A DNA stretch of 64,000 bases, taken from assembly GCF_029626035.1 (NCBI RefSeq), contig NZ_JARUBE010000003.1, positions 4,588,001 through 4,652,000 of the forward strand, written 5' to 3'. A program made the translations under genes and the position numbers. The first letter of the stretch is position 1. Each line of letters starts with the position of its first letter. Below the pieces are notes generated by a model that had not been told where the DNA came from, searched no databases, and worked only from the letters and a program-made list of their open reading frames with translations. Shown one piece after another: positions 22,516 to 40,294 of this stretch. This DNA comes from Micromonospora sp. WMMD980. GTDB taxonomy: Bacteria; Actinomycetota; Actinomycetes; Mycobacteriales; Micromonosporaceae.

Positions 22516-22700
22516 CCCGCCAGGCCGGCCGGTGGGCTCGAGCAAGCCGGTGATCTTACAGCTTTCGACGTGCTCGCGTAGGTCCCCGTCGGCGTCGAGG
22601 GCGGGGACCCAGTCGGTGGCGGCGGTGATGACCTGGGCGACATGTTGCGGCTCAAGTGGATCACGCAGTTCTGCATCGCCGCCTGGGGTCATCTGTTTGT
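22500..22700 (-). pseudogene. IS1380-like transposase remnant
   Basis: The minus-strand frame contains WVPALDADGDLREHVES...ITGLLEPTGRPGGTWFIVR, which resembles the middle of IS1380-family transposases (PALDADG...TGLLDLS-WP-GTRLIVR). It is only a fragment and directly abuts the IS630 remnant. Confidence 0.5.
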
Positions 22701-22837
22701 GACGACCTACGGCAGGCGACGGGGCCGTCGCAAACGAGGAAGAACTCGTCGTTGACGTCCCGGGGTCAGGTGGGCAGGTCGTCAATCAAATGCACCATTC
22801 AGCATTCCCGCTCATGGGATTTGCAGTAATGAATACA

Positions 22838-22866
22838 TTGACGCCGCGCTCCGCCTCCCTTACTCT
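22838..22866 (+). promoter_or_regulatory. Sigma70-type promoter of the RiPP operon
   Basis: TTGACG (22838-22843), a 17-bp spacer and TACTCT (22861-22866) match a housekeeping promoter. Transcription would start near 22873, leaving a leader of about 33 bases with a GGAGGAG ribosome site before the TTG start at 22906. Confidence 0.65.
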
Positions 22867-22905
22867 GCATCTTGTGACTCCCGACCGATTCGGAGGAGTA
22901 GATCA

Positions 22906-24831
22906 TTGAAGATCTGTTTCGTCGGAAAATATCCTCCGATCGAGGGTGGAGTCAGCGCGCAGAACTACTGGGCTGCCGCAGCGCTGGCATCACGTGGTCA
23001 CGAAGTCTATGTCGTAACCAATTCAGATGAGGTCGAAAAACGTTTTCGACAACGCCTTGACGGCGTCGAGGCGGCAGATTTCGAACCGCAATTCCCAGCC
23101 GCGGGCGGCGCGGTCAGGGTGATTCGTCCGGAGCCGATGACGCCACGTCGAATGGCGCACATCCCGTCGAGCAACCCGTTTGTGTCGAAGCTGGCTGGCC
23201 TGGCTGCCGCAACCATCCACGAAAATGGCTGTGAACTCATCGTCGCCTACTACTTCGAGCCCTACGTGGTGGCCGGTCACCTGGCGTCGACGTTCACCCG
23301 CACGCCGATGATGGTCGAGCACGCCGGCAGCGACCTCGATCGGCTCATGCGCGTGCCCGAACTGGCAACGGTCTACAAGGAGATTCTGCGGTCGGCGGCC
23401 GCCGTGGTGACCAAACCGTCTCTGGTGCACCGGTTCCTCGGCATGGGGGTGGCCCGTGAGGCGCTGCGGTTCGGTCCTCCGTACCCGCTGCCGACGTCGG
23501 CGTTCTCACCCGAGGCCGTACCGCTGGACACCGGGGAAATCGCCGCGGCCTCGATCGACGAGTTTGGCTCGCGGTTCGACCCGGCGTTGCCGACGATCGG
23601 CATGTACGGCAAGCCCGGCGACCGGAAGGGCACGTTCGACCTGATCGCCGCGCTGGCCGTCCTCGCCGGTCGCGGGCTCCGGTTCAACGCGCTCTTCCTC
23701 AGCGGGCGGTCCCAGTTGGACCGAATGCGCGCCGAACTCCGCGCCGCCGGCCTCGCCGACCGGACCGCGATCCTCGACTTCATGCCGCCGTGGCGGGTCG
23801 GCCGCTTCATTCGCACCTGCAACGCCGTGTGCTTCCTGGAGCGCGACTTCCCGATCGGCATCCACGGCCCGGTGGTACCGCGGGAGGTGCTCGCCTGCGG
23901 CGTCTGCCTGGTGCTCTCCGGAGAGATCCTCGAAAAGCAGTCGTACGCCCACCGCCTCACCGACCAGGGCAACGTTCTGGTCGTCACCGACCCCAAGGAA
24001 CACGACAAGTTGGCGGCCCAGCTCGAGATCGTCGTTCGGGACCCGGTGGGGGCGGCTCGGATCGGCGCGGCCGGCGGTGTGCTCGGAGCCGACTTCGACA
24101 GTTTCGAGACCTTCGCCGATGCCTGGGAGTCGCTTGTCGACATCGGGTCGCCGGCCCAGCGGATTCCCGCACCCCGCACCCCGGCCGACCTGCTGGCCGA
24201 ATTCACGCCGAAACTGGCCGGGTTGTTCGGGCCCGCGTGGCCGGGCGTCGTCGCCGAGTTCGAGGCGGCGTGCGACATCGACGCTGCTTCCGGCGACTTC
24301 GCCGCTGCGGAGGCGTTCTGTCAGCATCTGACCCGACGACTCGACCAAGCCGCGCTGGACGCAGGCGTCAGTCCCGCGTACCTGGCCGACGCGCTGCGCT
24401 TCCAGCAGGCCCGGCTCTGGGCCGGTCAGGACGGTCCGCATGACCGGGACGGGCACGCCGGCATCCGGTTCTCCCCGGCGCTGCTGCGGCAGATGGCCCC
24501 CCGTCGCGCCGGCACGGTCCGGGTGGAGTCGTTCGACCACAACGTCACCGACCTGTTCTGTCGGCCGACGGGCCCGGTTGGCGTCCAGACCACGCAGCCG
24601 GGCGAGCGGAGTTTCGTCTGCTTCGTCCGCCGGCCGAACCTTGACCACCACGAGCTGCGGCTCAACGCTGCTACCTATCGGCTGCTCGGCCTCTGCGACG
24701 GCACCCGCACCGTCGGTGAACTGGTGGCCGTGTTGGCTCCGGCCGCGGAGGCCGACGCTCTCCGGGCCCTGGTCGACCTCCGGCGAGAGGGTGTCGTGGT
24801 GCTGGAGGACGCCGCCCAGGGCGCGCCCTGA
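22906..24831 (+). CDS. GT4-type glycosyltransferase fused to a PqqD-like RiPP recognition domain
   Basis: A 641-residue protein with a TTG start and a strong ribosome site. Residues 1-400 form a GT-B glycosyltransferase of the GT4 type (MKICFVGKYPPIEGGVS at the N-terminus, GMYGKPGDRKGTFDLIAAL at the start of the second Rossmann domain, VPREVLACGVCLVLS as the nucleotide-sugar-binding region). Residues ~400-540 are helical with no recognised family. Residues ~570-640 are PqqD-like (ELRLNAATYRLLGLCDGTRTVGEL), the fold used as a RiPP recognition element. It is the first gene of the operon, 62 bp before the precursor gene. I infer that it binds the leader peptide and glycosylates the core or a tailored residue. 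Confidence 0.85.
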   Translation: MKICFVGKYPPIEGGVSAQNYWAAAALASRGHEVYVVTNSDEVEKRFRQRLDGVEAADFEPQFPAAGGAVRVIRPEPMTPRRMAHIPSSNPFVSKLAGLAAATIHENGCELIVAYYFEPYVVAGHLASTFTRTPMMVEHAGSDLDRLMRVPELATVYKEILRSAAAVVTKPSLVHRFLGMGVAREALRFGPPYPLPTSAFSPEAVPLDTGEIAAASIDEFGSRFDPALPTIGMYGKPGDRKGTFDLIAALAVLAGRGLRFNALFLSGRSQLDRMRAELRAAGLADRTAILDFMPPWRVGRFIRTCNAVCFLERDFPIGIHGPVVPREVLACGVCLVLSGEILEKQSYAHRLTDQGNVLVVTDPKEHDKLAAQLEIVVRDPVGAARIGAAGGVLGADFDSFETFADAWESLVDIGSPAQRIPAPRTPADLLAEFTPKLAGLFGPAWPGVVAEFEAACDIDAASGDFAAAEAFCQHLTRRLDQAALDAGVSPAYLADALRFQQARLWAGQDGPHDRDGHAGIRFSPALLRQMAPRRAGTVRVESFDHNVTDLFCRPTGPVGVQTTQPGERSFVCFVRRPNLDHHELRLNAATYRLLGLCDGTRTVGELVAVLAPAAEADALRALVDLRREGVVVLEDAAQGAP

Positions 24832-24893
24832 TACCCCGGCAGCGCGGCCCGCGCCGCCGGTCGGCAACTGCCAACGGGAGGGAGGTGAATCAC

Positions 24894-25025
24894 ATGGAGA
24901 CCTTGGAGAACATCGTGTTCGAGATGGAGGAGCTTTCGCTCAGCAACGTTTCGGACATCGAGGCCCCCGGTTGCGCGAGCTGCTCGAGCTGCGGTGGGTG
25001 CACGGGCTGCGGCATGGAGAGCTGA
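24894..25025 (+). CDS. Cys-rich RiPP precursor peptide, 43 aa
   Basis: A short gene with a very strong ribosome site (GGGAGGGAGGTG) 6-8 bp before its ATG. The first ~26 residues form an acidic leader-like helix (METLENIVFEMEELSLSNV...). The core is CASCSSCGGCTGCGMES, with a Cys at every third position (five Cys, four overlapping CxxC). The leader resembles thiazolylpeptide-type precursors, and the position between a PqqD-domain protein and an MNIO enzyme marks it as the substrate. No hydrophobic signal peptide is present. The likely cleavage site is after APG. The product is unknown. Confidence 0.85.
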   Translation: METLENIVFEMEELSLSNVSDIEAPGCASCSSCGGCTGCGMES

Positions 25026-25105
25026 CCGGCCGTCCCGCCCACGCCGCGCAGGCCCTAGGCCGGCACCGCAGCCCGCACCCTCACAAGCTTCCACAGGAGG
25101 ATGCA

Positions 25106-25945
25106 ATGAGCAAGGCTCTACCACGGCTCGGCGCCGGCCTGGGGTACCGCACGGCGCTGCATCAGGACATCGTCGCCAACGCCGACCGGATCGACTTTCT
25201 CGAAGTCATCTCCGACCAGTATCTGTACGCACCGCCGGAGAAGCTCCTGCGGCTGTTGGAGCTTGGCGACGCGTTCCCACTCATTCCTCACGGGGTCGGC
25301 CTGTCCGTCGGTACGGCGGCACCCCTCGACGGCGAATACCTCGATCGGTTGGCGCAATTCGTTGAAGCGACGCGGGGCCACTGGTTCAGCGACCATCTCA
25401 GCTTCACCAAGACACCCGACGTCGATGTCGAGCAGCTCACCCCCGTGTGGTTCACGGAGGAGAGCCTCGAAGCGGTCTGCCGCAACGTCCGGCAATTGAA
25501 GGCGCGAATTCCGGAACCGCCGTTCCTGCTGGAGAACGTCACCTACTACTTCCCGATCCCGGACAACGACCTCAGCGAGGCTGACTTCATCACGCGGGTG
25601 CTCGAGGAAACCGACACCGGTCTGCTCATCGACGTGAACAACATCTGGATCAACTCAGTAAACCTGGGCTTCGACCCGTACGAGTTCCTGAACTCGATTC
25701 CATTGGAACGGGTTGTGCAGATGCACATCGCCGGCGGGGTCGAGTTGGCCGGCATGCTCGTCGACACCCACAGTAGCGCGGTCAACGAGCAGGTGTGGGC
25801 GCTCGCCGCCCACGTCATGGAACGGGCGCCGGTCAAGGCCATCCTGCTCGAATGGGATTCCGACTGGCCGGAGTTCGCCGAACTGCTGGACCACCTCGAC
25901 CGGGCTCGTGACCTGTTGCCCACCCCGGCGAAAGCCGGGTCATGA
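25106..25945 (+). CDS. DUF692 multinuclear non-heme iron oxidative enzyme (MNIO)
   Basis: A 279-residue TIM-barrel protein of the MbnB/TglH/ChrH group. Family metal-ligand positions are visible: HGVGLSVG, SDHLSF, LLENVTYY, IDVNNIWIN, MHIAGG, DTHSSAV and LLEWDSD. Such enzymes use two or three iron atoms and O2 to modify Cys (oxazolone-thioamide, beta-carbon excision, macrocyclisation) or Asp/Asn in peptides. CAGGAGG lies 6 bp before the ATG. It follows the Cys-rich precursor by 80 bp and overlaps its partner gene by 4 bp. The expected substrates are the precursor's cysteines. Confidence 0.92.
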   Translation: MSKALPRLGAGLGYRTALHQDIVANADRIDFLEVISDQYLYAPPEKLLRLLELGDAFPLIPHGVGLSVGTAAPLDGEYLDRLAQFVEATRGHWFSDHLSFTKTPDVDVEQLTPVWFTEESLEAVCRNVRQLKARIPEPPFLLENVTYYFPIPDNDLSEADFITRVLEETDTGLLIDVNNIWINSVNLGFDPYEFLNSIPLERVVQMHIAGGVELAGMLVDTHSSAVNEQVWALAAHVMERAPVKAILLEWDSDWPEFAELLDHLDRARDLLPTPAKAGS

Positions 25946-26772
25946 GCCTGCTCGACATGCAACGGGCGTTCAGCCGGCTGCTCACCGATCCCCACTTCGA
26001 ACGGGAGTTCTTCGGCGAAGGGGCGGACGCGCCGTCGGAGTACGACCTCACCGAGCGTGAGCTGGACAGCCTGCGTCGGATGGACCGGAAGCGGCTCCGG
26101 CTGCACGCCGGCAACCTGGCTCACGCCCGGCTGGGCCTGGCGCTCAAGTCGGTGCCGCTTTCCGCGCTGGTCCTGCACGGTCAACTCGACCGGCACCTGG
26201 TGCGCTTCTGCCGGGAGTATCCGCCGGTCCCGGCTGCGGAGAGCGCTGTCATCCTGGCCACGACACGGCTGTGCGACTTCGCCGAGCGGCTCTTCGCCGA
26301 CGGGGACCTGCGACCCGCGTACGCCTGGGACCTGCTCCGTTACGAGAAGCACCTACTGGTGCAGGGATTCGGCACCACGTCCTGTCACGCCGCCGCCGAG
26401 TTCGCCCGGCGGCCGGCACCGCCGGAGCTGCTCGGCGACTGCGTCCCGATCACCGGCGCGCACGTGCTCGTCGACCACTTCCGGCATGACCTGCCCAGCC
26501 TGCTGCCCAGGTTGCAGGCTGGCGAGGTGCCCGAGGACGCGCCGCCGCTCGCGGAGCCGATGCGGATGATGTTCGTGAAGCGGCCGTTGAAGGCACTCGT
26601 CCAGACCTGCCGGCTCAACGCCGGGATGGAGTCGGTGTGGCACCTGTGCGACGGCACCCGCACGGTGGACGACATCGCGTCCCGCTACCCCGACCCGCAA
26701 CCGGTCGTGACGGCGCTCCGCGCCCTCAACCGCTTCGGGGCGATCGCCTTCACCACCGAGAGGACGTGTTGA
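25942..26772 (+). CDS. MNIO partner protein with C-terminal PqqD-like domain
   Basis: A 276-residue protein, translationally coupled to the MNIO gene (ATGA overlap). Residues 1-140 are helical and start like DUF2063-type MNIO partners (DMQRAFSRLLTDPHFEREFF). Residues ~205-275 look PqqD-like (RLNAGMESVWHLCDGTRTVDDIA...ALRALNRFGAIAF), closely echoing the C-terminus of the glycosyltransferase. It probably delivers the leader peptide to the iron enzyme. The exact family is not certain. Confidence 0.8.
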   Translation: MSLLDMQRAFSRLLTDPHFEREFFGEGADAPSEYDLTERELDSLRRMDRKRLRLHAGNLAHARLGLALKSVPLSALVLHGQLDRHLVRFCREYPPVPAAESAVILATTRLCDFAERLFADGDLRPAYAWDLLRYEKHLLVQGFGTTSCHAAAEFARRPAPPELLGDCVPITGAHVLVDHFRHDLPSLLPRLQAGEVPEDAPPLAEPMRMMFVKRPLKALVQTCRLNAGMESVWHLCDGTRTVDDIASRYPDPQPVVTALRALNRFGAIAFTTERTC

Positions 26773-26774
26773 GG

Positions 26775-28526
26775 ATGTGCGGCATCACCGGGATCTTCGG
26801 GACGGCCGACCGGTCGGCCCTGACGGCGATGACGGACTCGTTGCGTCACCGCGGCCCCGATGACGAGGGCCGGTACCTCGGGAAGCTCGCGGGCATGGGC
26901 CACCGGCGGCTGAGCATCATCGGGATCGACAACGGTGCCCAACCGATCCGGGGCGACCGACGCGACGTGTACGTGGTGGCCAACTGCGAGATCTACAACT
27001 ACCGGCAGCTCCGCGACGAACTGCGGCGGCGGGGACACCACTTCGGCACGGACTCGGACGCCGAGGTCATCGTGCACCTCTACGAGGAGTACGGAGACCG
27101 TTGCGTCGAACATCTGCAGGGGATGTTCGCGTTCGCGGTCGCCGACGGGGACCGCCTGCTGCTGGCCCGTGACCGCTTCGGTATCAAGCCGCTGCACTAC
27201 GCCGAGGTCGGTGCGGGCCTGCTGTTCGCGTCGGAGGTCAAGGCGCTGCTACAGAGCCGGCTGCTGACCCCGCAGATCGACGAGGAAGCGCTGGCCGACA
27301 CGGCCGTGTTCGGTCATCCCGCCGGCCCCGGCACCCTGCTGCGGGGGGTGGCGAGCTTGCCACCCGGCCACACGCTGAGCGCGGTTCTGGCGGACGACCA
27401 GGTTGTCACCACCGTCACCCGCTACCACACGTTGCCCGAGGCGGAATCCGACCCGATGCCGTTCGCCGATGCCGCCGCCGGCCTGACGGAGCTGCTGCGG
27501 GCCACCGTCCGGTCGCACCTGATGGCCGAGGTGGAGATCGGGATCACTCTCTCCGGCGGCCTCGACTCGACGATCCTCGCGCGGCTCATGCGCGAACTGC
27601 ACGACGGTCCGATCCGCGCCTACACCATCGGGGACCACGCGGACCATCCCGACGTGGTCCAGGCCCGGCGGCTGGCCGCGCGCCTTGGCCTGGATCACCA
27701 TGTGTCGATCCTGACGTTCCAGGATTTCGTCGCGACCATCCCGCGCTACCTCACCGCCGCCGAGCAGCCCGCCGGCCTCGGCGGCATCGCGCTCAACTTC
27801 CTGTGCCGGCGGATCGGCGGCGACGTCAAGGTGTGCCTCAACGGAGAAGGCGCGGACGAGGTTTTCGGCGGCTACGGCGAGTACGTCAACCGGTCTTTCC
27901 GAACCCGGCGGATGGTCGAACGTCTCGCCGCTCTCGATGCGTCGGGTCGTCCGGTCAGCGGGCGGGGGCGGGAATACCTCGATTCGCTCACCGCCGACCA
28001 GCCGTTCCCTCAGTACCTTCGGATGCTGTTCGCGGAGAACATGCGGGAGCAGCTCACCCGGGACCACCTCGAACTCCTGGACGCTTCGTCGATGGCGGCG
28101 AGCCTGGAGATGCGGGTGCCGTTCCTCGACCACCACGTGGTCGAGTTCGCGTTTCGTCAACCGCTGGCATACCGGGTCGACTGGGAGTTGGGCATCACCA
28201 AGCGACTGCTCAAGCAGGCCGTCCTGAGGACCTGGGGCGACGAGGTCGATCTGGTGGGCAGTGTGCTGCGACGCAAGATCGGAGCCCCGACCTCCGTCCT
28301 CGGGCACCGGGAGCGGTTCATCCGCCTTTGCGAACAGGTGTTGCCGGCGGACTACCTCCGCGACGACGAGTACGGCACGTTCTTCGAACAGAAGTCCGAC
28401 CTGCTGGTCTTCAACCTCTACCAGGAGATCTTCGTCCGATGCCGTGGTGTGCTCCCCGACGGGTTCACCATGCTGGACTTCATGGCGCAGCAGGCTCGCC
28501 GGCCGGCCCTGTCCGTGGCCGGCTGA
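26775..28526 (+). CDS. Asparagine synthetase (glutamine-hydrolysing) homologue
   Basis: A 583-residue class-II amidotransferase. The N-terminal nucleophile is Cys2 (MCGITGIFG), with RHRGPDDEG, NCEIYNYRQLR and DSDAEVIVHLYEEYG in the glutaminase domain. The synthetase domain has the PP-loop LSGGLDST and GEGADEVFGGY. Both active sites look intact. It starts 2 bp after the partner gene, in the middle of the RiPP operon. It may amidate an Asp/Glu or the C-terminus of the peptide (the core ends MES), or form an amide in the manner of lasso-peptide cyclases. Housekeeping asparagine synthesis is less likely. Confidence 0.9.
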   Translation: MCGITGIFGTADRSALTAMTDSLRHRGPDDEGRYLGKLAGMGHRRLSIIGIDNGAQPIRGDRRDVYVVANCEIYNYRQLRDELRRRGHHFGTDSDAEVIVHLYEEYGDRCVEHLQGMFAFAVADGDRLLLARDRFGIKPLHYAEVGAGLLFASEVKALLQSRLLTPQIDEEALADTAVFGHPAGPGTLLRGVASLPPGHTLSAVLADDQVVTTVTRYHTLPEAESDPMPFADAAAGLTELLRATVRSHLMAEVEIGITLSGGLDSTILARLMRELHDGPIRAYTIGDHADHPDVVQARRLAARLGLDHHVSILTFQDFVATIPRYLTAAEQPAGLGGIALNFLCRRIGGDVKVCLNGEGADEVFGGYGEYVNRSFRTRRMVERLAALDASGRPVSGRGREYLDSLTADQPFPQYLRMLFAENMREQLTRDHLELLDASSMAASLEMRVPFLDHHVVEFAFRQPLAYRVDWELGITKRLLKQAVLRTWGDEVDLVGSVLRRKIGAPTSVLGHRERFIRLCEQVLPADYLRDDEYGTFFEQKSDLLVFNLYQEIFVRCRGVLPDGFTMLDFMAQQARRPALSVAG

Positions 28527-28537
28527 GTTCGCCCGGC

Positions 28538-30247
28538 ATGCCAACCGACACCGCGCACCAGCGGGACGCCCTGCTCCGCGTCCTGGGCCTGCTCCGACGG
28601 CAGCGGTGGGCGGCGGCAACCGCGGTGGCACTCGGTGTCGTGGTCATCCTGCTGACCAATGCGCTGCCGCTGGTGATCCGGCGCATCATCGATCACGGCC
28701 TGTTGCACGACAGCGACGCCACGACCTCCGGGCTCGCGCTGCTGCTCGGGCTCGCCGCTCTCCGCTGGCTCGGAGACGTGGTACGCCGAGAGGTTAGCGG
28801 CCAGGTCGGGCTGCGCCTGGAGGCGGACCTACGGGCTCGGCTCTTCGGGCACCTGCTCTCGCTGGACGCCGGGTGGCACGGCCGCACGGAGGCCGGGCGG
28901 GTGCTCTCCCTCGTCGGCTCCGACCTGCGAATCGTCCGCGCCTTCGTCTCCTACTCCGCCTTGTTCATCCTCCTCAACACGCTGACCGCAGCCGCCGCCC
29001 TGATCCAGATCTGGCGCCTGTCTTGGCCGGTCGGGGTGGCCGCCACCGCTGTCCTGCCGCTGTTCGGGCTGGTCACCATCGGCTATGGGCGTCGGACGTT
29101 CGCCGCCTCCGCCGGGCTTCAGGAACGGGTGGCCGCCCTCACCACGCACGCCGAGGAGAACGCGGCCGGGATGCGCGTCGTCAAGGGCCTCGGCCGCGAG
29201 AACGAGGAAGTTCAGGCGTTCACTCGCCGGTCGGCCGAGGTCCGTGACCACAACGTGGCCCTGTCCGCGCTCCAGGCCCGTTACCTGCCGTGGACGATCG
29301 GCCTGCCCGAGGTCGGCCTGGTGCTCATCGTGTGGTTCGGCGGCTACCTGACGATCCGGGAATCGCTGACGGTGGGCACACTCGTGGCGCTGAGCACCTA
29401 CATGGCATTGCTGGTGTGGCCGGTCAGCTCCATGGTCGGGCTGTTCGGCTCCGCCCGGCGAGCCGCCGCCAGCGCGGCTCGGGTCTTCGCGGTTCTGGAC
29501 GAGCCCCTGACGGTGGCTGACCGTCCCGGTGCGGTCGACCTGCCCCGAGCGTCAGGTGGCGCCTCCGTCACCTTCGACGACCTCTGCTTCCGGTACCCCG
29601 GCGGGACCTGGCCCGGCCTGCGGCGGATCCGACTGGACGTGGCCGCAGGTGAACACGTGACAATCGAGGGCGTCGGTGGTTCCGGCAAGTCCGCGCTGGC
29701 CGGGCTGCTGGTGCGACTCTGGCTGCCGGACTCCGGCCGCCTGATGGCCGACGGCATCGACGTCGCCGACCTCACGCTCGACTCGGTGCGCGCCGCGGTG
29801 GGTTACGTGCCACAGGACGCCGTCCTGTTCAACGGCACCGTCCGGGAAAACCTCCTCGTCGGTCACCCGACCGCGACCGCGACCCAACTCGACCGGGCCC
29901 TGCGCCTGGCCGCCGCCGACGAGTTGGTGCGGACGTTGCCCAAGGGGTTGCAGACCGTCGTCGGTGACCACGGGCATCTGCTCTCCGGCGGGCAGCGCCA
30001 GCGGTTGGCCCTGGCCCGCGCGGTACTACCGGAACCCCGGGTTCTCGTCCTCGACGACGCACTGACCCAAATCGACACGGAAACCAGACGGCGTGTTCGC
30101 AACCGGCTCGAGGAACTGGCCGGCGCGGTCACCGTCCTGCACCTGACCCGACCCGGCGCTACGGGACAACCCCACGGGCGGGTGGTCACCCTGACTCCCG
30201 ACGGCGCCTTGCGCGAGATCACCGGCGCGGGCGGTGGGCACCGGTGA
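28538..30247 (+). CDS. ABC exporter half-transporter with degenerate Walker B
   Basis: A 569-residue half-transporter. Six membrane helices lie in residues ~20-300, followed by an ABC domain with Walker A GVGGSGKSA, Q-loop VPQDAVLFNG and a canonical LSGGQRQRLALARA signature. Walker B is VLVLDDAL, so the catalytic Glu is Asp, and the switch His region (LHLTRPG) is altered. These changes mark the non-hydrolysing side of a heterodimer. There is no N-terminal C39 peptidase. It forms a pair with the next gene (4-bp overlap), presumably exporting the modified peptide. Confidence 0.9.
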   Translation: MPTDTAHQRDALLRVLGLLRRQRWAAATAVALGVVVILLTNALPLVIRRIIDHGLLHDSDATTSGLALLLGLAALRWLGDVVRREVSGQVGLRLEADLRARLFGHLLSLDAGWHGRTEAGRVLSLVGSDLRIVRAFVSYSALFILLNTLTAAAALIQIWRLSWPVGVAATAVLPLFGLVTIGYGRRTFAASAGLQERVAALTTHAEENAAGMRVVKGLGRENEEVQAFTRRSAEVRDHNVALSALQARYLPWTIGLPEVGLVLIVWFGGYLTIRESLTVGTLVALSTYMALLVWPVSSMVGLFGSARRAAASAARVFAVLDEPLTVADRPGAVDLPRASGGASVTFDDLCFRYPGGTWPGLRRIRLDVAAGEHVTIEGVGGSGKSALAGLLVRLWLPDSGRLMADGIDVADLTLDSVRAAVGYVPQDAVLFNGTVRENLLVGHPTATATQLDRALRLAAADELVRTLPKGLQTVVGDHGHLLSGGQRQRLALARAVLPEPRVLVLDDALTQIDTETRRRVRNRLEELAGAVTVLHLTRPGATGQPHGRVVTLTPDGALREITGAGGGHR

Positions 30248-32064
30248 CCGCGCGACGAGGTCGCGTGATCGCGCTCCTGCGACCGCTGCTCCGGACCTAC
30301 CGGGGGTCGGTTCTGCTCGGCATCGGGGCGGCCATCCTCCAGACCGCTGCCGCGCTCACCATTCCGTACCTGATGAAGGTCGCCATCGACGACGGGATCC
30401 TGGTCGGAAACGTCACGGTGCTGTCCCTCGCGGCGCTGGCCGGCGTCGTGCTGGCCGGCCTGGAGGTGCTCGCGGCCCGTACCCAGATCCGCGCGGTGGC
30501 CCGCGCAGGGCACGGCATGCTCTCCAGCACTCGGGTCGCGCTCTTCGCACACCTGCAACGGCTGCCGATGCAGTACCACGAACACAACCGTCCGGGCCGG
30601 CAGGTCGCCAGCCTGACCGCGGACATCGAGGCGATGAGTGGGTTCCTGACCCAGGGATTCGTCACCCTCTTCGTCAGTACGCTCACCCTCACCGGTACGG
30701 CGGTCGTGCTCTTCCTGCTCGACGCCGGGCTGGCGGTCGCCTGCCTCGTCGTGATGCCGGTGCTGGCACTGGCGACGAGGTGGTTCCGCCGTCGGTCCGC
30801 GGTCGCCTGGCGACAGGTGCGGGAGACCGCGACCGCAGTCACCGTCGAGCTGCAGCAGGCCCTAACCGCCATTGCGGTCATCCAGGCGTTCCGCCACGAG
30901 CGGGCAACACTCGACCGGCTCGCCGCGGCTGACGGCGAGGAGCGGCGGGCCAAAGCCGCCACGGTCCGCACCGCCGGGATCTACTTTCCCACCCTCGACC
31001 TCTGCTCCGCCCTGGCCACCGTCGCCGTCCTCGCCATGGGGGCTCGTTCCGTCTCCGCCGATGGTCTGGAGATCGGCACCCTCACCGCCTTCCTTCTCTA
31101 CCTGCGCGGCTTCTTCAGTCCGATCTACGAGTTGTCCTCCGTGTACGACACCCTCCAGTCGGCCGTGGCGGGGGCCGAACGGGTCATCGACATCCTGGCG
31201 ACACCGGTGACGGTGCCCGAACCGGCGTCGCCGGTGCAACTCCCGGACCCACGCGGCGCGGTCACCCTGTCCGAGGTGACCTTCGGCTACCCCGACCACG
31301 ACGGCCTCAGCGGACCGGATGTGCTGCACGACGTCAACCTGGCCGTCGCCGCGGGCAGCACCGTTGTCATCATCGGCCCCAGCGGAGCCGGCAAGTCCAC
31401 GCTGGTGAAGCTAATGCTGCGCTTCTATGACCCCCAGTGCGGGCGAGTCACCCTGGACGGGGTCGACGTCCGTCGACTAGCCCACTCGGACCTACGTCGC
31501 GCGATCGCCTACGTGCCACAGGAGGGGTATCTGTTCACTGGCTCCATCTCGGACAACATCCGGATGGGCAACCCGACGGCCACCGACGACGAGATCGAGG
31601 CCGCCGCACGCACGCTTGGCGTCTGGTCAGTCCTGTCCACCACACCTGAGGGCCTCGACACACCCGTCGGCGTACGTGGTATGGCTCTGTCCGCGAGCCA
31701 GCGCCAGGTGATCGCGATCCTGCGCGCGTGGATGGCGGACCCGACGGTGTTGATCTGGGACGAGGCGACCAGCAGCCTGGATGTCGAGACCGACCAGAGG
31801 GTTCAGGATGCCACCCGCCTGCTGCGGGCCGGGCGCACCATGATCGTCGTAACCCACGACCTGCTCCGGAGCCTGGACGCCGACTCGGTGGCGCTGGTGC
31901 GGAACGGGCGGGTGGTGGCGTACGGGACGCCTGCGGAACTGCTGGCCACGGAGCGCTGGCTGTCCGAGGGCATCCAGCGGCCGACCCTCGCAGCCCACGG
32001 CCAGCCCACCGCCTATGCCGAGGAACCGGCGCGGACGGTCGGCATAGGGACGGATCCGAGTTGA
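30244..32064 (+). CDS. ABC exporter half-transporter, catalytic partner
   Basis: A 606-residue half-transporter with six membrane helices and an ABC domain. Walker A GPSGAGKST, Q-loop VPQEGYLFTG, Walker B VLIWDEATSSLD with the catalytic Glu, and the switch His in VVTHDLL are intact. Its signature is LSASQRQ instead of LSGGQ. This complements the first half-transporter exactly: one degenerate and one competent ATP site. It is the last gene of the RiPP operon. Confidence 0.9.
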   Translation: MTARRGRVIALLRPLLRTYRGSVLLGIGAAILQTAAALTIPYLMKVAIDDGILVGNVTVLSLAALAGVVLAGLEVLAARTQIRAVARAGHGMLSSTRVALFAHLQRLPMQYHEHNRPGRQVASLTADIEAMSGFLTQGFVTLFVSTLTLTGTAVVLFLLDAGLAVACLVVMPVLALATRWFRRRSAVAWRQVRETATAVTVELQQALTAIAVIQAFRHERATLDRLAAADGEERRAKAATVRTAGIYFPTLDLCSALATVAVLAMGARSVSADGLEIGTLTAFLLYLRGFFSPIYELSSVYDTLQSAVAGAERVIDILATPVTVPEPASPVQLPDPRGAVTLSEVTFGYPDHDGLSGPDVLHDVNLAVAAGSTVVIIGPSGAGKSTLVKLMLRFYDPQCGRVTLDGVDVRRLAHSDLRRAIAYVPQEGYLFTGSISDNIRMGNPTATDDEIEAAARTLGVWSVLSTTPEGLDTPVGVRGMALSASQRQVIAILRAWMADPTVLIWDEATSSLDVETDQRVQDATRLLRAGRTMIVVTHDLLRSLDADSVALVRNGRVVAYGTPAELLATERWLSEGIQRPTLAAHGQPTAYAEEPARTVGIGTDPS

Positions 32065-32307
32065 TCTCCACTGATGTGCACAGCGGATGACACCGCCGCG
32101 AGTGCAGCAAGCCGCCTGGTCAGCGCCTTCACGGTCGACGGTTTCGGCTTCCGCTCGGCGCTCGACGGCGACGCCAGTTCCAGCGCCGATACCGATCACT
32201 CCATTGGCTGAGGGACGTGCCCAGGGCTGCGGACGCGCGCATCGGCGGGAAGAGTGCCAGCCAGCCCTTGACGCTCGACCACTGCGCAACGATGACAAGA
32301 GTCAACA

Positions 32308-32448
32308 ACACACGGTTACCATACGTAGCTCCGCCGGGCTTGCCATCGCTAGTCATACTATAGCGTTGAGCTGCACAAACGTCGTCTAGCGTTGCTCGCT
32401 ACTTGTCACTGGTAGTCAACTCTTGGGAAGGGTTTTCGGGGGGTAAAC
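32308..32448. repeat. Att-like direct repeat, copy B
   Basis: Counterpart of the repeat at 21409-21549, in the same orientation. It keeps the ACACACGGTTACCA core, but the tRNA T-arm sequence that precedes copy A is absent here. The right end abuts the truncated IS5-family transposase. Its position just after the exporter genes makes it the right boundary of the RiPP-bearing segment. Confidence 0.7.
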
Positions 32449-32461
32449 GATCATCGAGCCG

Positions 32462-33235
32462 ATGCTGCCGTCCCCGCAGTGGATGGGCAGACCGGAGAAG
32501 CATCCACGGCGGGCGGTCATCGACGCCATCTTGTACGTGGTGCGCACCGGTTGCGCGTGGCGGTACCTGCCGGTGGACTTCCCGCCGTGGCAGACCGTGT
32601 ACGCGCACTTCGCCCGGTTGAACAGGCGGGGTGTGACCGAGCGGATCCTGACCGAGTTACGCGAGCAGATCCGGGTGGCTCACGGCCGCGAGCCCGAGCC
32701 CACGGCGGGAATCATCGACTCGCAGAGCGTGAGAGGCGCCGACACCGTGCCACGGGACTCCCGCGGCTACGACGCCGGGAAGAAGATCAACGGCCGGAAA
32801 CGGTTCATCGTCACCGACACCCTCGGCTTGCTGGTCACCGTCTGGGTACTCGCGGCGTCATGGCAGGACCGCGACGGCGCCAAAGGCGCCCTGCTCGCCA
32901 CCTACGCGGCCACCCCCATCCGGCACGTCTTCGCCGACTCCGGCTTCGCCGGCCGTCTCGTCGACTGGGCCCGTGACCTGCTGCGCACGACCGTCGAGAT
33001 CGTCCGCAAACCCGCCGACCAACGAGGGTTCGTCGTGCACCCACGCCGCTGGGTCGTGGAGCGGACCCTGGCCTGGCTCACCGCGCACCGCCGCCTGGCC
33101 CGCGACTACGAAACCCACCGCGCGACGTCCGAGGCCATGATCAGATGGGCTGCGCTCGGCGGCATGCTCCGCCGCCTTGCCCGAGGCGAAGCCGCCACCC
33201 GCCAACAACGCCTCACCTTCAACACACCCGACTGA
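32462..33235 (+). pseudogene. IS5-family transposase, 5'-truncated
   Basis: A 257-codon frame covering nearly a whole IS5-type DDE transposase (GCAWRYLPVDFPPWQTVY, GIIDSQSVRGAD, VFADSGFAGRLVDWA, RRWVVERTLAWL...RRLARDYE). Relatives start ~15-20 codons earlier. Here the sequence before IIEPMLPS changes into the att-like repeat and meets a TAA. The right terminal repeat (AATGTGAAACGCGCTC, 33240-33255) is present and the left end is lost, so the element cannot move by itself. Confidence 0.85.
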
Positions 33236-34889: not shown

Positions 34890-36220
34890 CAGGGCCCCGG
34901 CAAAGTCGTAACGGTGTCCGACTTGTGAGGCTTGGGGTAGAAGCGCCGTTGGTGGTGGCAGCAAGGCGGGCATGACCGGCTCAGAAGATCATCAAGGTTC
35001 TCTACGCCATGCTGATCGCCCGAAGTGAGTCATGCCCGCGCTGCCATCATCGCTGATCTCGTCCCTGTCCTGCGCACCGGCTCTGACCGTTGCCGAAACC
35101 GCTGGTGGGCTGCCCGAAGCGCTCGCTGGTCTGCCTGATCCACGGGCCCGGCGAGGTGTCCGGCATCGGCTGACGGTCGTGGTCACCGCAGCCGTGTGTG
35201 CTGTGGTCGCCGGCTACCGCTCGTACGCCGCGATCGCCGAATGGGTCGCCGACGTGCCGGCCACGACGGCTCTCGCCCTGGGCATGCCTGCCGACCGGCG
35301 CCCGTCGGAGGCGATGATCCGCCGGCTGTTACAGGCCATGGACCCGCAGCTACTGACCGCGGCGATCAGTGTCTGGCTCGCCGGCCGGGCCACCGCCACC
35401 ACCTCAACGGCCGGCCGGGCGATCGCCGTCGACGGCAAGACCCTGCGCGGCTCCCGCACCACCGACACCCCTGCCCGGCACGTGATGACCGCCTGCGACC
35501 AGGCCACCGGTGTGGTCCTGGCCAGCATCGACGTCGACGGCAAGACCAACGAGATCACCCGGTTCGCGCCGCTGCTCGACCAGATCAGCGACCTGCGCGA
35601 CACGGTGATCACCGCCGACGCCCTGCACTGCCAACGCGAGCATGTCGACTACCTCGCCGAGCGCGGCGCGCACTGGATCCTGACCGTCAAAGGCAACCAA
35701 CCCCACCTGCACGCCCAGCTCACCGCACTGCCCTGGCGGGCAGTCCCCGACGCCACCCGCGACACCGACCGCGGACACGGCCGCCGCGAGATCCGCAGCT
35801 GCAAGATCCTGACGATCTCCACCGGCATCGACTTCCCGCACGCCGCCCAAGCCATCCAGATCCGCCGCCGCAGACGCCGCCTCGACCAGCCGAAACGCTT
35901 CACCACCGAGACCGTCTACGCCATCACCGACCTCCGCGTCCACCAGGCAAAACCAGCACAACTGGCAGCGTGGACCCGCGAGCACTGGTCGATCGAGAAC
36001 AAGGTCCACTGGGTCCGCGACGTCACCTACGACGAGGACCGCAGCCAGATCCGCACCGGCACCGGACCCGAGGTCATGGCCGCTCTACGCAACGCCGCGA
36101 TCGGCGCACTCCGCACCGCTGGCGTCACCAACATCGCCGCCGCCAACCGGCATCACGCCCGCGACAGCATCCGCCCGCTGGCACTGCTCGGCATCACCTG
36201 ACGACTTTGCCGGGGCCCTG
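34890..36220 (+). mobile_element. ISAs1-family insertion sequence, copy 1 (1331 bp)
   Basis: The ends are CAGGGCCCCGGCAAAGTCGT and its inverted counterpart ACGACTTTGCCGGGGCCCTG. The flanks GGTGTCAGTG and GGTGTCAGGG form a 10-bp target duplication with one mismatch. It inserted upstream of the adenylation-domain gene. A second copy of the same length lies inverted at 43895-45225. Confidence 0.9.
35032..36201 (+). CDS. ISAs1-family transposase (copy 1)
   Basis: A 389-residue DDE transposase. The N-terminal DUF4338-like/helical part holds [15 protein letters not shown]. The catalytic core has [12 protein letters not shown] (first Asp), [11 protein letters not shown] (second Asp) and [22 protein letters not shown] (Glu). 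It is identical to the protein of the inverted copy at 43914-45083. Both are full length, so the element is probably active or recently so. Confidence 0.92.
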
Positions 36221-37093: not shown

Positions 37094-39502
37094 CTAATAG
37101 CCGGGGCCGATGTCAATGTCGGGGTCCTGGTTGGCGAGGCGTTCCTGGCGAGTGAGGTCTTCAAGCCGTTGCCGGAAAGCCGGGAAATCGCTGATGTTCC
37201 TCGTCGGGTCAGTGCGGAGTGAGAAGTCTCGCCGTAGCGCCGTGATCTTGATTCTGAGGCCGTCGTGGGCTGCGGAGTCGTCGAGGCTGCTCTCGATCTC
37301 GCGCAGGCGGCTGTCGGCGACAGTGCGACTTGCGCCGTCTTGATAGTCGTCGAGAAATCCGCGGACGATGCGTCCCATGCGCTTCTCGCGACGGCGTTGG
37401 GTTTCGCTGACCGCGGCGTCTTCGAGCAGGTCGGTCAGGTCGCTCAAGAGCGCGATGAAGTTGTCCTCCAGGGTCTTAACCTCTGCTGGGCGTCGACCGT
37501 CACGTGGGATGTGGTTGAGATAACTGACAACTTCGCGGGCGAAGCCGACCTTGTCGATATTCGCGTCGAAGGCCTCGGCGAAGCTGTCCTTCAGGCAATC
37601 CCACAACGAGCGGCCTGATTCGAGTCTTGTCTTGAGGCCCGTTTCCTTCAGTTTGGCGGCGTCCTCGTCACCGAGTCCTAGCAGACGGGTGGCGTAGTTC
37701 CGCGCGGCGTAGACCGCAATGCGTGCAGGGACAAGATCCTCGATCTCGGTCACGTCCCCGGACTTGGTCGAAGCGGCCACCTTGATGTCATCGGGTGCCG
37801 ATGCTGCGCGATTGGCAGCCCAGGTGTCCAGGCAAACGACGAACTTCGGGTCGAGGACCGGTTTGCGGTTCGCCTCGCTGCGCCTCAGTTTGCCGACGGC
37901 CCTTCGGCCGGCGTCGTCACCGTCGAGGAGCGCTACGCACGGGGGCTTGATCGGGTCGCGGCCGCGGGCGAGGTAGGCGATGTAGGGGACGCTGTCGGCG
38001 CTGCCGGCGGGCACGATCGTGACTTCGTTGAGGTCCAGCATCCGGGCGACGTCGGGCCGCCGGACGCGCAGCGCGTTGGACATCCCGGCCAGCATCACTT
38101 GGTCGGCGGATCCTTCGACGATGAGGTTCTTGCCACCGATGAAGGCGGTCTCGGCCACGTAGCTGCCCAGGGAGGAGCGCAGGGGCTCGTAGTGGGTGCG
38201 GGCGACGTCCCTGACTACGCGGGTGCCTTCTTCTTGAGCTCCCTTGTCGAGGACCCGCAGTCGATCCGCGGCGTTCTTGTTGATCAAGAAGGGTGAGTGG
38301 GTGACATAGATGACCTGGTCCGTCCGGCGTCGGTCGTCGGGAATCGCGAAGTTCTCCAGCACGCGCAGGAGGTCCTGCTGGCCGGAGTTCGACAGGTAGG
38401 CGTCGGGTTCATCCATGAGCAGGATCTCGTCGCGGTCCTCGGCCGGCCGGTGGGCCCGGAGCTGAACGAAGTAGGCGAGGAAGTGCGTCAGACCCCGGCT
38501 GCGTTCGCCGAAGGAGTACTCCGCCCCGGTGCGGTCGCGGATGGTGAACACGAGCTCCCGCTCACGAGTGGTGACGCGGAGTTTGAAGTCGTTGTCCTGG
38601 CTCCACCAGCGTGAGAGGTTGAGGTGTCGCGCCAAGCTCTCATTGATCTTGCCCTCAAGGCCACTGACTTCGCCCTCCTTGCCTTCGTTGATGGCCTTCT
38701 GGAGCTCCTTGAAGATGCTCTCGTCGATGCGGGCGACATCGACGAGCAGTTTCTTGGCTAGGGCTTGTGCGTTACGTTGAAGTGCTTGCTCGCGGCTGTC
38801 CGCCGTCGAGGTCGGGCGACGGAAGAACGACCACAACCGCCGGCCCCACGCCGTTGTGTCGGCGTCGTCGTCGGCATCAATTTGCTCGGCGGCTTCCAGG
38901 AACTCACCACGGAGGCGGCGGTCAGCGAGGTTGCCCAGCCGGCCACCCCAGAGCGACGCGATCGGCACGCTGTCGGGAACGGCGATGCTGGTGGAGAACC
39001 GTAATACCTGCGGCAAGATGCCTTCGAGCGCCTTCACCTCGGCCGGGTCGTCAAGCTCGACGATGGTCTCGTCCGCCACGATGAAGGGAGGCCCTTCCCC
39101 GGGCCGCATGAACAGGAACGTCTCGCCTACCGCCCTGGTCACGTCGAGTGTCGCCAGCAACTCGGACTCCGCCTGCCGGGTGACCATGAAGACGGCGCCC
39201 ACGTCAGGTATCCGGACTTCGTCGGTCTCGACCGAGAACAGCTGCGAGTAGCGACAGAAGTCGCTACGCGTCACCTCGCGCTCACCCATGACGCACTCGA
39301 TGGCGTCCAGCAGGTGGCTCTTGCCCGACTCGTTTGCTCCGACGATCGCGGTGATCTGGGGGTCGACGTCGAGGCGCACATGGGGATACCAGCCCTCCGG
39401 CAGGATCTCCCACGTCGCACGCTGAGCCTTTTCGTTCGCGCGGCGCTCATAGTCGAAGTTGAAGGACTTGAAAAACCTGACGTACACCCGCGTGAGGCGC
39501 AC
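37094..39502 (-). CDS. OLD-family ATP-dependent endonuclease (AAA plus TOPRIM)
   Basis: An 802-residue protein. The GTG at 39500-39502 has GAGGAGGG just upstream. The N-terminal half is an ABC-type ATPase: Walker A VGANESGKSH, signature-like FGERSRGLTHFLAYF, Walker B EILLMDEPDAYLS, followed by VIYVTHSPFLI. The C-terminal half is a TOPRIM nuclease: NLIVEGSADQ (catalytic Glu) and VALLDGDDAG (DxD). OLD nucleases act in phage defence, alone or with a UvrD-like partner as in Gabija. No GajB-like helicase is adjacent, so it is a stand-alone (class 1-like) member. Confidence 0.85.
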   Translation of the reverse strand: MRLTRVYVRFFKSFNFDYERRANEKAQRATWEILPEGWYPHVRLDVDPQITAIVGANESGKSHLLDAIECVMGEREVTRSDFCRYSQLFSVETDEVRIPDVGAVFMVTRQAESELLATLDVTRAVGETFLFMRPGEGPPFIVADETIVELDDPAEVKALEGILPQVLRFSTSIAVPDSVPIASLWGGRLGNLADRRLRGEFLEAAEQIDADDDADTTAWGRRLWSFFRRPTSTADSREQALQRNAQALAKKLLVDVARIDESIFKELQKAINEGKEGEVSGLEGKINESLARHLNLSRWWSQDNDFKLRVTTRERELVFTIRDRTGAEYSFGERSRGLTHFLAYFVQLRAHRPAEDRDEILLMDEPDAYLSNSGQQDLLRVLENFAIPDDRRRTDQVIYVTHSPFLINKNAADRLRVLDKGAQEEGTRVVRDVARTHYEPLRSSLGSYVAETAFIGGKNLIVEGSADQVMLAGMSNALRVRRPDVARMLDLNEVTIVPAGSADSVPYIAYLARGRDPIKPPCVALLDGDDAGRRAVGKLRRSEANRKPVLDPKFVVCLDTWAANRAASAPDDIKVAASTKSGDVTEIEDLVPARIAVYAARNYATRLLGLGDEDAAKLKETGLKTRLESGRSLWDCLKDSFAEAFDANIDKVGFAREVVSYLNHIPRDGRRPAEVKTLEDNFIALLSDLTDLLEDAAVSETQRRREKRMGRIVRGFLDDYQDGASRTVADSRLREIESSLDDSAAHDGLRIKITALRRDFSLRTDPTRNISDFPAFRQRLEDLTRQERLANQDPDIDIGPGY

Positions 39503-40294
39503 CGGCCCTCCTCGGCATCCCATGTCGCCTGGCACCACACGCCAGCCACGTACGAGGAACCTAGCCGGGGCGTACGACAGAAGGGCAGAGCTGCCCGTCT
39601 CGGGCCCCGCCGGATCGATACGTGGTCGATACGTGGCAGCGTGTCCCGACTCTGCCCGGTCGGGCGGGTGCATAGGCTTGCGGCGGAGGTATGGGCGGCG
39701 CGGCGCCGGGTACGAAGCCGTGGGTGGCAAGCTGGAGTGGGACGGGGCTGAGGAGCTCGGCGAAGAGCCCTCGTTGCAGCGCGCGGCGTTGGAATTTGGG
39801 GTGCTTCGATTAGTCGGCCGCGATCGGTTCATCCGGGGTGTAGTGGTGCAGCCGGACCTGCGGCAAGGCAGTTGACAGAGAAAGCTTGGCCCGGCCCGGT
39901 TGGCTTGTGCGAGCGCCGCGGACTGGCGAATGACTGTGGCGCCGGTCTGCTTGTGTACACCGATGCCCGCCTTGCTGGACAAAGGTGCGTAAGCCGCAAA
40001 TAAGGAACCCTGGCCGACTTCCAGAGTAGGTGTGGCTGAGGCACCGGAACGCCGGCCATGCCGACACCAACGTTGGTGCTCGGGGATCCCTCGGTCGTGC
40101 CCCCGCCTACGGAGGCTGAGGACAACGAGGGGCTTGGCCCTTGAGGCAGTCCCAGCACCTTCCGGCAGCCTGGGCCCCCGTTGGTTAAGTCCTCTTTGCT
40201 GAACACTCAGACATATTCTCAGGGCCGGTGGGGATACAGGAGCGGAGACGAATAAACCGCCAGGCTATGAACGAGATTAGGAGGGATAACAGCC
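39503..40294. other. About 790 bp with no recognisable gene
   Basis: The open frames here lack protein-like composition and consistent codon use, and no RNA gene, repeat or transposase fragment stands out. The last 20 bp hold the AGGAGG site of the small gene that follows. Confidence 0.4.

Follow-up and report, generated by a model that had tools for sequence, protein, structure and literature searches.

A glycosyltransferase with a fused MNIO partner domain is linked to MNIO peptide clusters in Micromonospora and other bacteria

Introduction

What kind of peptide would result if an oxidative iron enzyme, a glycosyltransferase (GT) and an asparagine-synthetase-like (AsnB-like) enzyme acted on one precursor? 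This question is raised by a locus of Micromonospora sp. WMMD980, situated in a stretch of 64,000 nucleotides of contig NZ_JARUBE010000003.1 that was analyzed as a whole and is subsequently named the window. A seven-gene operon at window positions 22906–32064, with all genes on the + strand, encodes a GT carrying a fused partner domain, a small Cys-rich precursor, a multinuclear non-heme iron-dependent oxidative enzyme (MNIO) with its partner protein, the AsnB-like enzyme and two halves of an ATP-binding cassette (ABC) exporter (Table 1). A first-pass annotation had proposed an MNIO operon for a ribosomally synthesized and post-translationally modified peptide (RiPP): its placement of the seven genes and of the 43-aa precursor is correct, gene order and strand included, the family matches bear the proposal out and the gene combination recurs in other genomes. 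We consider the anatomy of the operon and its conserved linkage solid. By analogy with known enzymes we infer that the product is oxidized at cysteines, glycosylated and end-capped. The operon falls among the MNIO-dependent RiPPs and possibly forms a class of its own.

Results and discussion

The fused glycosyltransferase is linked to MNIO genes

Used as a single query, the window GT retrieved no related loci, whereas a seven-row GT alignment (A1), consisting of the window GT and six GTs from loci fetched via their MNIO, succeeded. We scanned one genome per species (84,980) with A1 and two conserved peptides, a procedure that detects only GTs holding one of the two peptides: 141 pattern matches and 88 relatives were obtained, the best 80 of which gave 78 loci. 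The GT carries the partner domain in 39 of these loci, and iterated profiles identified an MNIO in 37 of the 39, compared with 8 of the 39 loci whose GT lacks the fused domain (some of the latter are contig fragments or split frames). Fused GT and MNIO always lie on the same strand (37/37) with a median gap of 859 bp between the matched domains, and in 35 cases within 3 kb; for the unfused GTs, five of the eight pairs are on opposite strands. According to record titles and tree labels the 37 loci, many of which are metagenome bins, span six phyla: Actinomycetota, Pseudomonadota, Acidobacteriota, Chloroflexota, Myxococcota and Bacillota. They include three species already covered by the family search described below and the near duplicates L070/L072, L085/L086 and L087/L089; L051, L059 and L066 duplicate L036, L037 and L040 and were removed from the trees, but are still counted in the 37/39. 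The co-occurrence check that the first-pass annotation had suggested is therefore positive. It had also named an outcome that would speak against its proposal, namely MNIO homologues found with unrelated precursors and a GT that is never linked; instead, linkage of the GT is regular, and CxxC peptides account for many of the precursors.

We also searched 354 genomes of the family. An MNIO match at E ≤ 1e-30 was obtained in 261 of them; among the matches listed, those below 40% identity (34–39%) represent a different paralogue, and true orthologues (88 and 97%) occur in two genomes besides that of the window. A1 matched a GT at E ≤ 1e-40 in eight genomes, in all of which an MNIO lies nearby, and no unlinked GT was found at this threshold in the 354 genomes. 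Because seven of these eight matches are rows of A1 itself, only G091 is independent: its GT match covers profile positions 2–419, leaving the tail uncovered, and the MNIO is located about 0.8 kb away on the same strand. Spongiactinospora and Nonomuraea (Streptosporangiaceae) share one gene order, comprising GT, two precursors, MNIO, partner, AsnB and two ABC genes.

The GT carries a second partner domain

The GT protein is composed of a GT4-type domain (about residues 1–417) and an MNIO-partner-like domain with a RiPP recognition element (RRE; about residues 430–641). It shows Pfam glycosyltransferase matches, and its C-terminus gave an ApyI-like match below cutoff. Residues 368–637 can be aligned with the separate partner protein over almost its entire length (hhalign probability 99.5, E 1e-22). 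The earlier description as a glycosyltransferase-PqqD fusion understates the tail, which is a second full partner domain. In L065, L068, L069 and L071 a separate partner was not found and the GT tail itself scores 216–253 bits as partner; GT and MNIO therefore plausibly share leader recognition. This suggests that one leader-binding module may recruit two different chemistries.

In the structure model the GT adopts a GT-B fold, with BshA (6d9t, Z = 29.9) and MshA (3c4q, Z = 29.7) as best hits of the fold comparison, which would place it among the GT4 enzymes. A PDB sequence search with A1 yielded no match at 1e-5, so that these relatives were found by fold comparison alone. No further GT of the same kind was detected in the genome at E ≤ 1e-3.

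The operon is conserved as one block

Table 1. Features of the operon in window coordinates
Feature	Position	Strand	Remarks
Possible weak promoter TTGACG-N17-TACTCT	22838..22866	+	Unsupported by consensus scan
GT4-type GT fused to MNIO-partner/RRE domain	22906..24831	+	641 aa, TTG start
Precursor peptide, 43 aa, C-terminal part GCASCSSCGGCTGCGMES, CxxC repeats	24894..25025	+	
MNIO (DUF692, PF05114)	25106..25945	+	PF05114 E 1e-84
MNIO partner protein, PME-type-2-like, helical domain + RRE	25942..26772	+	
AsnB-like amidotransferase, AsnB1 clade, N-terminal MCGI	26775..28526	+	TIGR01536 above cutoff
ABC exporter half (ABC1), membrane + ATPase	28538..30247	+	PF00664, PF00005
ABC exporter half (ABC2), membrane + ATPase	30244..32064	+	PF00664, PF00005

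The genes had been described as separated by 2–8 bp or overlapping by 4 bp. This holds for the 4-bp overlaps (MNIO/partner and ABC1/ABC2) and for the 2-bp gap between partner and AsnB, but not for the gaps between GT and precursor (62 bp), precursor and MNIO (80 bp) and AsnB and ABC1 (11 bp). A single promoter had also been proposed for the genes, but a scan of positions 22600–32600 gave no consensus sigma-70 site; the candidate promoter at 22838 is present in G271, and G174 aligns at its TTGACG part only.

The block occurs in these two congeners: G271 is 94.9% identical to the window across 9361 bp and G174 81.7% across 9090 bp (window 22893–31966). When window positions 14–42 kb were compared with 20 kb of G174, no homology was found outside 22893–31966, and since homology is confined to these borders the block behaves as one unit, in agreement with the single unit proposed earlier. 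The ratio of non-synonymous to synonymous substitution rates (dN/dS) against G174, determined for six genes, was 0.25 for GT, 0.21 for the precursor, whose Cys-rich part is identical in both genomes, 0.09 for MNIO, 0.27 for the partner, 0.19 for AsnB and 0.25 for ABC1. None of these six genes contains an internal stop relative to G174. As judged from these alignments, the six genes are under purifying selection; a decaying operon was rejected because the dN/dS values are in the low range and the frames are intact.

MNIO, partner and AsnB-like enzyme

The residues H62, H97, E143, D176, H207, D220, H222 and E249 of the window MNIO, which we take to be the metal-binding residues, are invariant across 57 rows. 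Relatives in the PDB are 3bww, TglH (8hci) and MbnB; the MbnB equivalog model gave 36 bits at a cutoff of 325. A PF05114 enzyme with the conserved residue set next to an RRE-bearing partner marks the operon as an MNIO-dependent RiPP cluster. The partner protein is closest to TglI and gave no match to the DUF2063 (PME-type 1) model.

Among 33 AsnB-like rows, which sample these loci and not AsnB enzymes at large, 13 including that of the window form a clade (AsnB1, support 100/99). All 13 belong to GT-MNIO clusters, which come from Actinomycetota, Acidobacteriota and Pseudomonadota. Three paralogues from the same genome, 36–37% identical to the window AsnB, fall outside this clade. In the MNIO tree the window MNIO belongs to an eight-row clade (99/99) consisting exclusively of GT-MNIO clusters with AsnB1; the MNIOs of the remaining five AsnB1 clusters are placed elsewhere, and the history is therefore not one single line. 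The tree label GT_AsnB1 covers 15 rows, since it counts L087 and L089, whose AsnB falls outside the AsnB1 clade. A second clade (AsnB2, support 100/100) comprises L036, L048, L054 and L077, each with two precursors. These loci carry a NodU-type carbamoyltransferase (by Pfam in L036, by similarity in L054 and L077, by eye in L048), in three cases a second GT (by Pfam in L048 and L054, by similarity in L077) and in two a methyltransferase (L036 and L048).

All 13 AsnB1 rows retain Cys2, the pyrophosphate-loop Asp, the Glu-Tyr pair, Arg and Lys. PesC of the nitrilobacillin pathway uses a Glu363/Tyr368 dyad together with an Asp334-Arg443 substrate dyad (PMC13060819). The window AsnB has its Glu-Tyr dyad, E362 and Y367, within the motif DEVFGGY, paired with that of PesC by motif and spacing and not by alignment. 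At the position of the near-substrate Asp of E. coli AsnB the window enzyme carries Glu330, and Arg447 is retained; all 13 AsnB1 rows have Glu there, as do many AsnB-like rows beyond the clade. This position may correspond to Asp334 of PesC.

Precursor peptides share CxxC units and a leader motif

The window precursor, METLENIVFEMEELSLSNVSDIEAPGCASCSSCGGCTGCGMES, starts with the acidic N-terminus METLENIVFEMEEL, in which no hydrophobic stretch or Sec-like signal was seen by eye. We tabulated 18 precursors of 12 AsnB1 clusters (the thirteenth, L084, has an untabulated candidate). All 18 contain at least two CxxC units, separated mostly by small residues (for example CSGCGSCSGCAHSGCSGCAH, CGGCSGCSNSGCSQCG and SCGGCNGCSGCSM), and by eye all leaders contain the motif hxFxh[EDQ][EDQ]L, where 'h' represents a hydrophobic residue; the window version is IVFEMEEL. 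A C-terminal R(V/T)DN core, as in nitrilobacillins, is not present in the tabulated precursors. In 4 of the 12 clusters (L046, L047, L055 and L057) no precursor carries Asp or Glu after the first CxxC Cys, which, subject to where the leader is cleaved, disfavors side-chain amidation or a lasso-type closure as the common job of AsnB1. The start of one L048 precursor was set too early (84 aa), so that upstream Cys inflates its Asp/Glu count; judged by its CxxC part it contains one Asp. GT-linked clusters without AsnB1, whose precursors were chosen by eye, show CxxC cores as well as others; examples are hydrophobic CxxC (SCVVCFVCFVCIVCLV), CNCYGSC accompanied by LanB, and SCGCSCGCGE.

Leader models gave matches below cutoff: the window precursor to the thiocillin-leader model NF033482 (E 7e-4), L049 (E 2e-4) and L055 (E 1e-3) to ammosamide/lymphostin and L047 (E 5e-4) to heterocycloanthracin, while 7 of 10 precursors from other loci had no match. 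Such weak matches reflect leader likeness, not class. A thiopeptide was rejected because the seven genes include neither a LanB-type dehydratase nor a YcaO, and the leader match is weak.

A proposed pathway and its alternatives

We propose a leader-guided RiPP cluster with Cys oxidation by MNIO, sugar transfer by the GT, end amidation by AsnB1 and export by the ABC pair, and give this scheme about even chances. The leader (IVFEMEEL) would be held by the RREs, and the MNIO-partner pair would oxidize the CxxC cysteines, most likely to a thiooxazole or an oxazolone/thioamide-type group. The GT, recruited to the same leader via its fused domain, might then move a sugar from a nucleotide-sugar donor to a Cys- or Ser-derived site. 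AsnB1 would activate a carboxylate by adenylation, the peptide C-terminus being the most likely one, and then amidate it, possibly going on to a nitrile; C-terminal amidation (or nitrile formation) is the job that fits this enzyme best. Finally, the ABC pair would export the product; removal of the leader would fall either to the exporter or to an enzyme encoded elsewhere. The most likely role of the product is metal chelation. That the peptide is oxidized, then glycosylated and/or amidated had been suggested in the first-pass annotation; the steps are still conjectural, and the precursors shift the presumed amidation away from side chains and towards the C-terminus or another carboxylate.

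Several observations weigh against this scheme. No protease or sugar-pathway gene is found among the seven genes. The motif EX7E is typical of GT4 enzymes; it is altered here, as Glu327 is invariant and the first Glu position is Ile319 in seven of seven aligned GTs. An AsnB-like gene is present in the fetched DNA of 16 of the 37 loci with fused GT and MNIO, and was not seen in that of the other 21. Two fused GTs (L053 and L058, the latter on a 4.7-kb contig) lack an MNIO. Some GT-linked clusters (L037, L039, L040, L065, L069 and L085) have other or mixed cores. In L046 and in one L047 precursor, Asp or Glu occurs a few residues before the first Cys and could stay in the product, depending on the leader cleavage point. 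The C-terminal residues of the 18 precursors are diverse (S, N, A, H, D, G, M, R, K), which would be odd for a C-terminus-specific amidase unless the peptides are trimmed first.

Among the alternatives the one that survives best, although we consider it unlikely, has AsnB1 act on the sugar: the GT would attach a uronic acid that AsnB1 converts into a uronamide, with more sugar tailoring in the AsnB2 subclade. The four clusters without an acidic residue past the first CxxC Cys are consistent with this, as are the carbamoyltransferases, second GTs and methyltransferases of the AsnB2 loci and the score of the window AsnB against TIGR03108, an amidotransferase of the XrtA/PEP-CTERM system (337 bits, cutoff 817). 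However, a uronate pathway gene is absent from the operon, and the AsnB-like RiPP enzymes named in PMC13060819 (PesC, TsrC and ScdTA) work on the peptide C-terminus.

It is improbable that the operon is an ordinary captophorin (bufferin or oxazolin) cluster with incidental neighbors. Captophorins (bufferins, oxazolin, fontiphorin) do resemble it in combining an MNIO, an RRE-bearing partner and Cys-rich precursors (PMC12668002). They differ in what the window lacks or adds: no Sec-like signal was seen by eye in its precursor, its partner is PME-type-2-like, nearest to TglI and without a DUF2063 match, and the GT and AsnB genes are present, the linkage of the former being systematic. The captophorin class was rejected on the signal and on the partner type.

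Similarly improbable is an inactive GT domain, the fusion being merely a second MNIO partner. The tail is indeed a full partner domain and the EX7E motif is atypical, but many GT-domain positions (KYPPI, GGVS, HAGSD, GK..KG and E327) are invariant in the seven aligned members, five of which fall in two close groups, and the dN/dS of the gene also speaks against this. Least probable of all is that AsnB1 closes a macrocycle through an isopeptide bond, in lasso fashion or otherwise: it shares its family with the lasso cyclases, but the score against NF033535 (165 bits) is far below the cutoff of 525, the glutaminase Cys2 is kept in 13/13 rows, and L046, L047, L055 and L057 offer no Asp or Glu past the first CxxC Cys, leader cleavage point aside.

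Relation to known systems

In methanobactins, as proposed for the window, the MNIO works on Cys, and their core motif is C-x-x-C. In the pearlin system (TglA/TglHI, 3-thiaglutamate), TglHI takes out the beta-carbon of Cys; to our knowledge this system has neither CxxC repeats nor a GT fusion.

MNIO chemistry on Cys is established (PMC13174530, PMC12668002), and the architecture of an RRE-glycosyltransferase fusion has been reported with reference to PF00535 (PMC12710340). Nitrilobacillins (pes) share with the window an MNIO (PesH), a partner (PesI) and an AsnB-like enzyme (PesC) on one precursor; this precursor, however, ends in R(V/T)DN, its Asp is hydroxylated by the MNIO and the accessible text mentions no glycosyltransferase, in contrast to the CxxC precursor and GT fusion of the window (PMC13060819). 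The std cluster (dihydroxyhomocitrulline) pairs an MNIO with a NodU-like carbamoyltransferase, as in the AsnB2 subclade, but unlike the window it has YcaO-TfuA and a Lys-containing core, with no GT fusion mentioned in the portion of the paper available (PMC13174530). Also similar are the adjamnio-7 precursors and PME-type 2 partners, with CxxC motif, no signal peptide and TglI-like partners; one PME-type 2 example, 276 aa long, comes from Plesiocystis pacifica, to which L056 also belongs. The available text of that paper contains neither 'glycosyl' nor 'asparagine', Pfam names listed in figures apart, so that overlap is possible (PMC12452194).

The first-pass annotation knew of no MNIO cluster with this GT, an AsnB-type enzyme and this core. 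The full combination was indeed not found in the literature searched, nor was an identical characterized cluster, but the pairing of MNIO with an AsnB-like enzyme is already reported for nitrilobacillins. No GT with linkage to an MNIO came up in the open-license literature searched, Pfam names in figures apart. A broader claim, possible but held tentatively, is that of a RiPP class in its own right, spread across phyla and recognizable by its fusion of GT and MNIO partner domain: the MNIO would form sulfur heterocycles or thioamides at CxxC, the GT would sugar the new sulfur or an adjacent hydroxyl, and the products would be end-capped glycosylated metallophores or antibiotics. If the GT does sugar an MNIO-made sulfur group, this modification is unnamed in the accessible portions of the MNIO-product literature examined, and the AsnB1 clade, if correctly assigned, would add another end-capping enzyme to RiPP biosynthesis. 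The fusion itself provides a genome-mining handle for a peptide family found in six phyla.

Further clusters and neighboring genes

The search also returned related arrangements. In Asanoa and a relative (L037:1431–15935, L039:3267–12502 and L040:7387–16559) a LanB dehydratase (PF04738/PF14028) and an S9-type peptidase, identified by Pfam in L037 and by similarity in the others, adjoin a GT-partner fusion and an MNIO, with CNCxGSC precursors, possibly a lanthipeptide-MNIO-GT hybrid. Hydrophobic CxxC cores (such as SCVVCFVCFVCIVCLV and TCIVCLICVVC) with a common FELRAMKP leader occur together with GT and MNIO in L061:3041–3274, L063, L070:9562–9813, L072, L075 and L083, from Chloroflexota, Streptomycetaceae, Acetobacteraceae and Bryobacteraceae. 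In an Acidobacteriota metagenome-assembled genome (MAG; L052:12203–19913), a single MNIO is surrounded by eleven short Cys-rich precursor-like open reading frames and two fusions of GT and partner. In a Mycobacterium MAG (L053:8505–10577), where no MNIO lies on the fetched DNA, the fused GT is followed by a small Cys-rich open reading frame (..SYCGGTCGACCCYEKEVSE). Four Patescibacteria loci (L093, L096, L105 and L108) have an unfused GT less than 600 bp from an MNIO on the opposite strand and a separate partner.

Other MNIO clusters were also seen. In L034, L035, L038 and L043 the MNIO is accompanied by YcaO and by a protein with a nitroreductase domain (by Pfam in L035), with no GT; three of the four have an ABC exporter match, and precursors include ..MCGVTQSSNVQCNYPMCA (L035) and ..CQGGCGGCLNCSSSRTCGKPPNCI (L043). 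In L041, L042 and L044, where no precursor was recognized, MNIO and partner adjoin a methyltransferase gene and genes for ABC/FecCD transport (by Pfam in L042).

Just 3′ of the operon, DDE transposase genes are located at window positions 32462–33235 and 35032–36201, which fits a mobile setting. Further downstream (37094–39982), a 962-aa protein with AAA_15 and AAA_21 matches, the latter model being described as a putative AbiEii toxin, may be a defense gene.

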